36,902 nucleotides of DNA, taken from positions 42,392-79,293 of the forward strand of contig KE351659.1 of NCBI GenBank assembly GCA_000415185.1, given 5' to 3'. The stretch comes from Enterococcus faecalis 13-SD-W-01 (lineage in GTDB: Bacteria; Bacillota; Bacilli; Lactobacillales; Enterococcaceae). The position numbers were made by a program, and so were the translations under genes. The notes under the pieces are model-generated. The model did no database searches. It was given only the letters and a program-made list of their open reading frames with translations, and was not told the DNA's origin. Below are positions 25,582 through 28,555 of this stretch, piece by piece; the stretch's first letter is position 1, and each line of letters begins with the position of its first letter.

Positions 25582-25621
25582 AGAACTTCAGCAAACAATC
25601 TGATTTGTTTGCTGGAGTTCT
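25582..25621 (-). terminator. Terminator of the agrBDCA-type operon
   Basis: AGAACTTCAGCAAACAA (25582-25598) pairs with TTGTTTGCTGGAGTTCT (25605-25621) over 17 bp with one G-U pair. On the minus strand the hairpin is followed by a T-rich run, so it ends the quorum-sensing transcript. Confidence 0.85.
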
Positions 25622-25642: not shown

Positions 25643-26368
25643 TCAGATCAATTTTTTTAATCCTCGAATGGAAACCGGAATGACTTCACCGTTATTCAAG
25701 GTCACTTCACGAGCCCGTTTATTGATTGAACGGATATTTTGGCTGTTGATGACATAAGATTTGTGACAGCGAACGAAATCTGCGTGCTGTTTTTCAACAT
25801 CTTTGATCTTTTCATAAAACTGCATTTGCGCATGCGTAAGGTGGACCTCTAATTTATGAGGAGTACCGGAAGCTGTTGAAAAGTATTGGATATCTTTGAC
25901 TGGCAGAAATTTGATCTCATCATTGAACTCTACTTTGAAGATGTCTTTTTGAGGTTCGGATGTTCGGAAATCCAAAAAGATCTTGCTGAGTAATTGTTCT
26001 ACATTTTCTTTTAGGTCAAAAATATCTTCCTTTAAGATATAGTCTGTAGGCTCAATGTTGCTTTTTAAAATCGTCAATGAAAGATCGTTATGTGAAGTTA
26101 CATAAATAATCTTGCCTAATGGATCAAGTTCGCGAATCTTTTTACCAAGAATGATTCCGTTGAAGTCGCTGCCTTCTAATTCGATATCCAAAAAGTAGAT
26201 ACCAAAAGAAGAAGTACGTACTTTTGCCGCTTCCAATAATTCTAAAGGATCCGAGGTCGCGCAATGAACATAACTATCCAATTTTTCGATCATGATCCGG
26301 TTTTTGATCACTGCGTTTAGAATCTCTAATTGTCTCTGATCGTCTTCACAAATATATATGGGAATCAT
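25643..26368 (-). CDS. AgrA/FsrA-type LytTR response regulator
   Basis: A 241-residue regulator. The receiver domain has the acidic patch E8-D9-D10 in YICEDDQRQ and phospho-acceptor D61 in IYFLDIELEG. The C-terminal LytTR DNA-binding domain (about 138-241) shows IQYFSTASGTPHKLEVHLTH, FVRCHKSYVINSQNIRSI and NNGEVIPVSIRGLKKL, typical of AgrA, FsrA and LamA. I chose MIPIYICED as start because AAGGAG lies before it; the longest frame adds 20 residues lying inside the kinase gene. It is last in the operon, 13 bp after the kinase stop. It should bind direct or inverted sites near the agrB promoter once phosphorylated. Its LytTR domain distinguishes it from the OmpR-type regulator at 2959. Confidence 0.9.
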   Translation of the reverse strand: MIPIYICEDDQRQLEILNAVIKNRIMIEKLDSYVHCATSDPLELLEAAKVRTSSFGIYFLDIELEGSDFNGIILGKKIRELDPLGKIIYVTSHNDLSLTILKSNIEPTDYILKEDIFDLKENVEQLLSKIFLDFRTSEPQKDIFKVEFNDEIKFLPVKDIQYFSTASGTPHKLEVHLTHAQMQFYEKIKDVEKQHADFVRCHKSYVINSQNIRSINKRAREVTLNNGEVIPVSIRGLKKLI

Positions 26369-26381
26369 TATTCTTCTCCTT

Positions 26382-27662
26382 CTATGTAAGCTGGATATGG
26401 ATCGTCTGGATAAAACGCTGATTCTCAATCGTCGTTTCTAAAAATAAATGATTGCTGCTGTTGATAAGTTCATCCAAAATGAAGAGTCCGAGACCATCAT
26501 TCTGGTTTTTATTTTTCGTTGAGAATCCTTTTTGTTTCAAGACGTTTAGTGGTAGTTCGTTTAAAGTCGAATTTGCTACCCGGAATAAAATAAAGTTGTT
26601 CTTTTTCAAAATAGATAGTTCGATGGTTTTCTTTTTCGTGATCTCTGCACCTTCGATGGCATTGTCTAAAATGATGCCGATCATACGAACAAGATTTACG
26701 GTGTGTTTTTTGTTCAAGGAAACTGTTTCTGGGAAATCGATGTGGACATGCAATCCCTTTTCCTGTGCGATCATCAGCTTCAGCGAAAGTAAACTGCGTA
26801 ATTCAGGGCTTTCCATTTTGTCTAAAACACTGAGGTTAGCAGGAAAAAGATTCAACATCTTTCTTGTCGGTAATATTTGCTCATCATAATACTTCTTCAA
26901 ACCGTCTAAATCTCTTTCTTCTATATAACTAGTTAATGAAAACAGCAAGTTCTGATAATCATGTTTGAATTCGCGAAGTTCTTGATAGTTTTTCTCAAGA
27001 TCTTTGATATATTCGCTTTGTAGTCGAACTTGCTGTTCTAATAATTCATCTGCTAATTTTTTGTTGGTGATTTTTCGGTAATAAAATAAAATGAAAAGAC
27101 CGATCACAAGGTAAAAAATGAAAAATCCTGTGTTCACTTTCAGCGTTTGGGGAGTTTCGCCGGAAAAACGTGTATAAAAAATTATGACGTAATAAGTGAA
27201 TACAATACCGTTACCAACAATTCCTAGAATATAACGATCAATTTCACGGAAAAAGTTCTTCATGCAGAATCGGAATCCTAATGACAAACTAAAAGAAAGT
27301 GTCGTTGCAATAAACAAATGTAAATATTGTAGAGAATCGCCTGGTTTTATAACGGCAGTGTTTTTAATAAAAAAGTCAACAAAGCTTGCAAGATGATCTC
27401 CTAGCAAAGAAGCTAGAATACCGTAAGGAAAAGCATACAGAAGTTGATTTTTCTCTTTTGAAAAAATCAAGAAAGTAATTGCAAGCACTCCAATAACAAA
27501 AAAGGTTGTAAAAATGTCAATCAGTGAATACATGTATCCTGAGACGATACTGAATAGCAACGTAGTAATTAAAAAAATCCGCTTATGTTTTATTTCATTG
27601 TCAATAAACAGAATATTAGATGTATAGACGAGATATTGTAAGGCTATAGGCCATAAAAACAT
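26382..27662 (-). CDS. AgrC/FsrC-type receptor histidine kinase
   Basis: A 426-residue kinase. Residues 1-195 form about six membrane helices, the pheromone-sensing part of AgrC-like receptors. A coiled coil follows (about 200-230: LLEQQVRLQSEYIKDLEKNYQELREFKHD) with phospho-acceptor H234 in FKHDYQNLLFSL. The ATPase is of the GHKL type: N-box IIGIILDNAIEGAE near 340-350 and G-box QNDGLGLFILDEL. Length and layout match FsrC, LamC and AgrC. It starts 49 bp after the pheromone gene; GGGAG lies 10 bases before the ATG. It should recognise the cyclic peptide made from the upstream precursor. Confidence 0.9.
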   Translation of the reverse strand: MFLWPIALQYLVYTSNILFIDNEIKHKRIFLITTLLFSIVSGYMYSLIDIFTTFFVIGVLAITFLIFSKEKNQLLYAFPYGILASLLGDHLASFVDFFIKNTAVIKPGDSLQYLHLFIATTLSFSLSLGFRFCMKNFFREIDRYILGIVGNGIVFTYYVIIFYTRFSGETPQTLKVNTGFFIFYLVIGLFILFYYRKITNKKLADELLEQQVRLQSEYIKDLEKNYQELREFKHDYQNLLFSLTSYIEERDLDGLKKYYDEQILPTRKMLNLFPANLSVLDKMESPELRSLLSLKLMIAQEKGLHVHIDFPETVSLNKKHTVNLVRMIGIILDNAIEGAEITKKKTIELSILKKNNFILFRVANSTLNELPLNVLKQKGFSTKNKNQNDGLGLFILDELINSSNHLFLETTIENQRFIQTIHIQLT

Positions 27663-27710: not shown

Positions 27711-27821
27711 TTATTTTTTTAATTTCTCAGGGATTTTGAACTCTGACATGATACCAAAGCAGCAGCCTGAAACAAAGAAATCTGAAAGGCTTGAAAGTTG
27801 GTTAATGATTACTTTTTTCAT
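27711..27821 (-). CDS. AgrD/LamD-type cyclic peptide pheromone precursor
   Basis: A 36-codon gene found by reading the minus strand between agrB and agrC. TTAGGAGG lies 7 bases before its ATG. The product begins MKKVIINQLSSLSDFFVSG, an amphipathic helix as in AgrD leaders, continues CCFGIM (20-25) and ends in the charged tail SEFKIPEKLKK, whose Pro-Glu-x-Leu pattern matches AgrD-family tails. The arrangement is very like LamD of Lactobacillus plantarum (known core CCVGIW, pheromone ring CVGIW). Cleavage after M25 and ring closure on C21 would give a Cys-Phe-Gly-Ile-Met thiolactone. It overlaps the last 20 bp of agrB, so the two are translationally linked, as enzyme and substrate. The exact processed ends are inferred. 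Confidence 0.9.
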   Translation of the reverse strand: MKKVIINQLSSLSDFFVSGCCFGIMSEFKIPEKLKK

Positions 27822-28404
27822 GTGAAATCCTCCTAAAATTCATTAATGTATTTACACTTGGAAGTAACATACATATTTCTAAGACAATCCCTAGTATTAA
27901 ATAAGTAGCGAAGTCATAAGAAGAAAAGAATAGACTAACTACTGCAAACAAGACAAACATACCAATCGCTTTTTTCAGTAAGGGTGGACGTTTTTCGGGT
28001 TCAATGGGATTTAATGCTGTACCTTTTGATCCATAGCGCAGCAGCAAGCCAAAGCAGACTGCCAAAATCAGACACATCAAGAAAAAGGGGATTTGGATAT
28101 CCAGTAATTTGAAGCCTAAAGGAAGGCCCCAGAGATATGCGATGGTCCAGATAAGACAAGCAAATTCTGAATCAGAATGCAGTCCATAAGCATAACGTCG
28201 TATACAAATGTATGAAAGAAAAGTAATTCCTGTTTCATACAATGAGTGAGTGACGAGAGCAAAAAGAAAAACGACTGCCAGTTTCAAAACATTGTTTATC
28301 AGTACATCGATCGCAAATTTTACTTGGATATACTTCAGATCTTCCGTTGATGTTTCTGTATCAAAAAGGATGGACATGATCTTGTTTACAAACTTTTCTT
28401 TCAT
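27802..28404 (-). CDS. AgrB-type pheromone maturation endopeptidase
   Basis: A 200-residue membrane cysteine endopeptidase of the AgrB family, which removes the C-terminal tail of the AgrD precursor and closes the thiolactone ring. The catalytic pair H76 and C83 sits in RRYAYGLHSDSEFACLI with the seven-residue spacing of S. aureus H77/C84. Four to six hydrophobic segments follow, with the cytoplasmic stretch ALNPIEPEKRPPLLKK conserved in the family. GGAGG precedes the start. It is the first gene of the operon and its last codons overlap the pheromone gene. Unlike E. faecalis FsrB, the pheromone precursor is a separate frame rather than a C-terminal fusion. Confidence 0.92.
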   Translation of the reverse strand: MKEKFVNKIMSILFDTETSTEDLKYIQVKFAIDVLINNVLKLAVVFLFALVTHSLYETGITFLSYICIRRYAYGLHSDSEFACLIWTIAYLWGLPLGFKLLDIQIPFFLMCLILAVCFGLLLRYGSKGTALNPIEPEKRPPLLKKAIGMFVLFAVVSLFFSSYDFATYLILGIVLEICMLLPSVNTLMNFRRISHEKSNH

Positions 28405-28460: not shown

Positions 28461-28488
28461 ATCATAAAAAGACGTTTTGAGCTCAAAA
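28461..28488 (-). promoter_or_regulatory. Candidate agrB promoter with TTTTG-N4-CAAAA operator
   Basis: Minus-strand TATGAT (28461-28466) is a good -10. The palindrome TTTTGAGCTCAAAA (28475-28488) overlaps where the -35 should be, and no consensus -35 exists, fitting an activated promoter. About 55 bp separate the -10 from the agrB start codon. Confidence 0.45.
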
Positions 28489-28535
28489 ACGAAGAAATTT
28501 AACATAATTGACACATAACAGGTGAGCAAGTTGAA

Positions 28536-28555
28536 CAGTTTTGATGCCAAAACTG
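28536..28555. promoter_or_regulatory. Second TTTTG-N4-CAAAA palindrome upstream of agrB
   Basis: CAGTTTTGATGCCAAAACTG is a 20-bp palindrome with 8-bp arms. Its core repeats the TTTTG-N4-CAAAA pattern of the palindrome at 28475-28488, exactly 64 bp away (about six helical turns). It is a likely binding site for the LytTR regulator; a short hairpin is the alternative, as CTTTTT follows on the plus strand. Confidence 0.45.

Follow-up and report, generated by a model that had tools for sequence, protein, structure and literature searches.

An agrD gene in an agrBDCA operon of the Enterococcus faecium group, with a predicted five-residue CFGIM signal

Does the very short reading frame at 27711..27821 of the window (the whole stretch of 36,902 nucleotides that was analysed) encode the precursor of a peptide pheromone and, if so, which ring would be released from it? 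The host is a species of the Enterococcus faecium group, and these positions are a real gene, the agrD of an intact agrBDCA operon. We put at roughly 85% the probability that this gene belongs to a working quorum-sensing operon of the E. faecium group releasing c(Cys-Phe-Gly-Ile-Met), a reading that comes from comparison of sequences.

On the minus strand, agrD is an intact open reading frame of 36 codons running from ATG to TAA, and its product, MKKVIINQLSSLSDFFVSGCCFGIMSEFKIPEKLKK, is predicted to consist of a leader (residues 1 to 20), a ring (Cys21 to Met25, CFGIM) and a tail (residues 26 to 36). An AGGAGG ribosome-binding site (27829..27834, minus strand) lies inside agrB, 7 bases 5' of the ATG, and the last 20 bases of agrB (stop at 27802-27804) are shared with agrD. 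The frame stands where the original prediction had located it. The GGAGG of this site is retained in the nine other orthologues printed. Of 15 genomes of the genus, one for each species, 11 (the window's among them) have an orthologous agrD, and the 11 copies amount to eight DNA alleles and four proteins. Among the carriers are Enterococcus mundtii (two records), E. lactis, E. durans, E. villorum, E. sp. ZJ1622 and E. sp. 10A9_DIV0425, together with a genome that we take to be E. hirae ATCC 9790 (G004) and another (G003) taken as E. faecium, as suggested by the tree, where E. lactis is its neighbour.

Stop codons or frameshifts across relatives had been named in advance as an observation that would count against the gene; the frame is open in all 11 orthologues, with synonymous changes within and around the core. 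Over codons 8 to 36, outside the agrB overlap, the window compared with each of the ten relatives gave pS of 0.47-0.79 and pN of 0.05-0.10, a sign that purifying selection acts on agrD throughout the genus. Moreover, the window AgrD matches the AgrD family model NCBIfam TIGR04223 with 24.4 bits (E=2.4e-5), above the curated cut-off of 19. A chance open reading frame, for which one could invoke the very short length and the zero matches in a Pfam profile search of the window AgrD, has practically no likelihood left beside the large excess of pS over pN, the conserved open frame and the model match, and was rejected. The same match tells against the expectation that ordinary gene calling would overlook the gene: once proposed, the window frame is recognised by NCBIfam, so that the word hidden does not apply to this copy under that model. 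Scores of 12.6 and 13.7 bits were obtained for two CFGMS proteins and 17.8 for the CFGML protein, all under the cut-off, and the copies probably missed by TIGR04223 are therefore those of the relatives.

The assignment to an AgrD precursor within an agrBDCA operon was upheld by this model match and by the three neighbouring genes. Upstream, agrB (27802..28404, minus strand) encodes a membrane peptidase with an AgrB domain (PF04647, 82.9 bits against a cut-off of 23), the only AgrB match in the window genome. Its His76 and Cys83, which we take to be the counterparts of the S. aureus catalytic pair, do not vary among the 10 aligned proteins, the broken copy of G011 lying outside the alignment. 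A sequence search of the PDB with AgrB returned no AgrB structure, the best match being an antiporter subunit at E=0.9. Downstream, agrC (26382..27662, minus strand) encodes a membrane sensor histidine kinase whose kinase half matches solved S. aureus AgrC structures, and agrA (25643..26368, minus strand, ATG at 26366-26368) encodes a response regulator with receiver and LytTR domains, the DNA-binding domain of which matches the solved S. aureus AgrA structure. A terminator-like hairpin (25582..25621, both strands) lies 3' of agrA, one of four such sites in the region against 2.3 expected from shuffles. Against the NCBIfam equivalog cut-offs, AgrB scored 72.7 (cut-off 282), AgrC 169.7 (500) and AgrA 171.3 (400), all far below, which makes the three proteins distant members of their families.

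The order agrB-agrD-agrC-agrA, with DUF2187 beside agrB, is found in each of the ten other holders of agrD, the locus of G002 being split across two contigs. In E. mundtii Pe161 (G011), agrB is frameshifted and lies in two pieces in different frames (L093 5754-6352). An operon that is present but silent or decaying, its signal no longer made, would fit with such decay among relatives, where agrB is frameshifted in this one genome and agrB, agrD and agrC are absent from three others; with all four window genes open and agrD under selection, we consider it very improbable that the window operon is in that state.

Which residues would form the ring was addressed by comparing 31 AgrD-like proteins, namely 28 of 39 search rows plus the three core types of the window group. 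Five duplicates or near duplicates (L035, L036, L126, L134, L044) and six rows not AgrD-like in appearance (L069, L071, L072, L119, L120, L121) were left out. A Cys stands ten residues ahead of the tail Pro in 29 of these 31 proteins (Cys21 and Pro31 in the window), a spacing that is partly built in and not fully independent, since the majority of the proteins were retrieved with the AgrD model. The count would be 31 of 31 if Cys or Ser were accepted; L133 has Ser, and L131 passes via a Ser that is probably not the ring residue, hence the figure of 29. This spacing suggests that the ring starts at Cys21, not at Cys20, and that the precursor would be cut after Met25.

The second line of evidence comes from the orthologues themselves. 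Over codons 12 to 36, variation among the 11 is confined to residues 24 and 25, giving three core types: CFGIM in the window, CFGMS in nine genomes and CFGML in one (G014). As a random-draw guide, both of two positions drawn from 25 would fall inside a given five-residue stretch with p = 10/300, a figure to be taken as a guide only, the rows being related. The spacing and the position of the variable residues thus both back the predicted CFGIM ring, which is probably a five-residue ring from Cys21 to Met25. Since the branch leading to the window is long in the AgrB-AgrC-AgrA tree, we label CFGIM neither derived nor ancestral; this tree is loosened by an AgrB row of 95 residues for G011, which is a piece of the protein, and an AgrA row of 190 residues for G004.

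Two further features of the precursor had been proposed. The CCFGIM core was described as LamD-like; membership of the AgrD family stands, but the double Cys is no mark of LamD, as 9 of the 31 AgrD-like proteins have it, three of the window group and six from other genera of the family. The leader was called amphipathic, and it appears so only weakly: over residues 1-18 the helical moment comes to 0.347 in the window, a value reached by 12% of shuffles, and to 0.415 in a CFGMS form (5%).

The double Cys also bears on what would leave the cell. All 11 orthologues have Cys20, and the signal might keep it, either as C-[CFGIM] with a one-residue tail or as a six-residue all-amide c(CCFGIM) formed by attack of the Cys20 amine on the thioester. 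The frequency of CC among the AgrD-like proteins would agree with this, and a one-residue tail has been proposed and debated for Listeria in the part of PMC11297923 available. In the available parts of PMC12405376 and PMC12312760, on the other hand, the related L. plantarum signal CVGIW is reported as tailless, and the CC could serve leader cleavage alone; retention of Cys20 appears to us rather unlikely, and the tailless ring starting with Cys21 remains the preferred product.

Even so, the chemical form of a CFGIM ring may change after its release. According to the sections of PMC11297923 and PMC12405376 at hand, tailless five-residue thiolactones rearrange to all-amide rings, a step that the original prediction left out of account, and this outcome is described there for the tailless AIPs of Listeria, C. 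perfringens and L. plantarum; the available part of PMC11297923 gives the Listeria thiolactone a half-life of 1.3 min at pH 7 and 37 C. Given this fast rearrangement, both a thiolactone and an all-amide form are possible for the CFGIM signal outside the cell. That the all-amide c(CFGIM), produced by an S-to-N acyl shift, would be the working or dominant extracellular form instead of the thiolactone is conceivable, if on balance doubtful, the short-lived thiolactone being the most potent form in Listeria according to the same part of PMC11297923.

Set beside known systems, the window operon resembles LamBDCA of Lactiplantibacillus plantarum in operon type, in a five-residue Cys ring and in the Gly at position 3 of the ring, as far as that system is described in the portions of the sources available. 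Its signal CVGIW has three of five ring residues in common with CFGIM (C, G and I), a comparison that concerns the ring and not the LamD leader or tail, and is made from the same partial sources. When 395 genomes of the order were searched with a CCVGIW pattern, three matches appeared, none of them AgrD-like on reading. The Agr system of Listeria monocytogenes (CFMFV, likewise from partial sources) also has agrBDCA and a five-residue Cys ring beginning with CF; its remaining ring residues, again from partial sources and compared by signal, not by precursor, differ from those of the window. S. aureus signals carry tails of two to four residues, unlike the predicted window ring, according to the available part of PMC12312760.

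Fsr of E. faecalis is, like the window operon, an enterococcal Agr-type system. The available part of a review (PMC12312760) lists its signal GBAP as QN[SPNIFGQWM], a Ser lactone with a nine-residue ring, whereas the window AgrD has Cys at the ring position and, by spacing, a five-residue ring; the claim that the window peptide is distinct from GBAP was thereby borne out. By this spacing, the window AgrD would have neither the Ser at the ring position nor the nine-residue lactone that characterise FsrD/GBAP.

We propose a model in which AgrB would cleave AgrD after Met25 and close a thioester ring between Cys21 and Met25, removal of the leader then releasing the five-residue signal c(Cys-Phe-Gly-Ile-Met). 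Detection of the peptide by AgrC would lead to phosphorylation of AgrA, which may in turn raise agr expression (a presumed autoinduction), probably via two palindromes that precede agrB. Ring positions 4 and 5 vary between species (IM, MS, ML) and could confer species specificity. AgrC residues 31-60 and 121-150 have a mean identity of 34% to the window and are also the least alike among the other proteins (60% and 66%). Since these sensor stretches diverge even among CFGMS species, the window is not singled out by receptor divergence. Co-variation of receptor and core was considered and set aside, as the divergence extends to species that have CFGMS in common.

The two palindromes are candidate AgrA operators on the minus strand, site II (28474..28489) lying 69 bases and site I (28538..28553) 133 bases 5' of the agrB ATG; on the plus strand, site I is also a terminator-like hairpin. 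Allowing up to three mismatches, 10 of 11 loci have a near 16-base palindrome 68-71 bases upstream of the agrB ATG, and all 11 have another, more diverged, at 133-270 bases, whereas shuffled regions average 0.06 matches, with the reservation that the pattern was derived from the same loci as those counted. We infer that AgrA binds the palindromes upstream of agrB. The locus lacking the near palindrome is that of Enterococcus sp. 10A9_DIV0425 (G014), where a foreign stretch lies upstream of agrB (L095 6372-6483, L075 4875-4986). This stretch is presumably a Nextera adapter; the missing palindrome may thus be an assembly artefact. A TATGAT at 28461..28466 (minus strand), picked out by eye and outside the promoter-scan matches, is a possible -10 of the agrB promoter; the scan of the region gave four sites, none at agrB, against 11.2 in shuffles.

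Genome-wide, exact palindrome matches occur in 4 of 15 genomes; the sole match in each of G003, G004 and G005 is at agrB, and the only one in the window genome is inside an ABC permease frame. With one mismatch, the 15 genomes together contain 33 places, of which 11 are upstream of agrB and 22 elsewhere, against 13 for a reversed control pattern. The window genome has four such places (control 0), two at agrB, the one in the permease frame and one between frames (L111). Of seven places read in other genomes, two are between frames and five inside open frames 80 codons or longer (one of only 81). The matches away from agrB are little above control, and we do not claim a palindrome-defined regulon.

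Four of the 15 genomes of the genus have no orthologous agrD. In three of them (G001, G010, G012), agrA lies alone between DUF2187 and an AI-2E family transporter (L155 6936-7664, L156 7090-7818, L157 1360-2088), agrB, agrD and agrC being absent there, and no remnants of these three genes were found in the gap of ~460 bases. The lone agrA is open in all three, with 242 codons and 66% identity to the window agrA, and diverged palindrome-like stretches (three to four mismatches) persist upstream of it. Asp61, the likely phosphorylation site, is retained, and residue 9 is Lys in all three orphans versus acidic in the aligned AgrA proteins of agr-bearing genomes. The receiver of the one orphan scanned (L155) scored 26.0 against a Pfam cut-off of 30.2; the window AgrA receiver scored 37.4 bits. 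We read the orphan as an AgrA that may have outlived its signal. In the fourth genome without agrD (G008), the best transporter match is 29% and there is no close orthologue.

A bolder hypothesis, which we advance as speculative and think unlikely to hold in full, could be that the E. faecium group shares a hitherto undescribed pheromone in at least three species versions (CFGIM, CFGMS and CFGML), with an invariant double Cys allowing two alternative ring products, and that one lineage would have lost signal maker, signal and receptor while retaining AgrA, so that what was a quorum-sensing regulator would now act alone.

The signalling system itself belongs to a known type, but we did not find the CFGIM signal or its sister versions in related species described. 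No description of the peptide appeared in the titles and abstracts found in our literature search, which is a weak negative, as subscription papers mostly lay beyond it. In the part available of a table in a 2025 review (PMC12312760), the E. faecalis signal is the sole enterococcal entry, and the review nowhere uses the word faecium. In E. faecium under heat stress, expression of AgrB, AgrC and AgrA is reported as changed, AgrD being named as background only in the accessible passages (PMC10046512); a precursor below the annotation cut-off could be one explanation for this role of AgrD, among other possible reasons. The passages available list agrD in one E. lactis strain and not in two others (PMC13191895), and cyclic lactone autoinducer clusters in E. 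hirae (PMC13063575); these passages give no peptide sequence for either.

The E. faecium group comprises gut residents and hospital pathogens. The calculated [M+H]+ is 552.231 for c(CFGIM), 526.179 for c(CFGMS) and 655.240 for the CCFGIM form; c(CFGIM) and c(CFGML) do not differ in mass, and a thiolactone is an isomer of its all-amide ring. With exact candidate peptides named, production and species specificity become directly testable, and the orphan-agrA genomes offer a natural contrast to those with agrBDCA. The three core types, the under-scored orthologues and the orphan-agrA group are the parts most worth following.

A plasmid or phage origin of the locus was also considered and rejected. 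The window AgrD had no match in 72,556 plasmid records (E up to 1), and AgrB matched one distant Staphylococcus record at 27.8% identity. Two records named "Listeria phage" (L083 and L084; OR847058.1 and OR848662.1) gave a 74.7% match across 35% of the query. Both are unverified, unannotated wastewater contigs holding the agr locus in the order DUF2187-agrB-agrD-agrC-agrA, the chromosomal order of enterococci, and are probably mislabelled Enterococcus DNA.

A second agr-type locus (L032-L039, L042), with cores such as CTFVI, CLFAI and CIGLV, is present in several members of the genus; no second AgrB match was found in the window genome. These second loci (e.g., L034, CTFVI) have the same Cys-to-Pro spacing in AgrD as the window but differ from it in longer precursors, YEPK tails, other cores and AgrB proteins 22-24% identical where aligned. 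Weak AgrD matches occur outside the genus in five genomes, and of the four translated (all but L073) only L070 is AgrD-like. In each of two genomes of another genus of the family, two AgrD-model matches lie in tandem, ~256 bases apart (G078 C3:302928-303273 and G083 C1:762071-762416).
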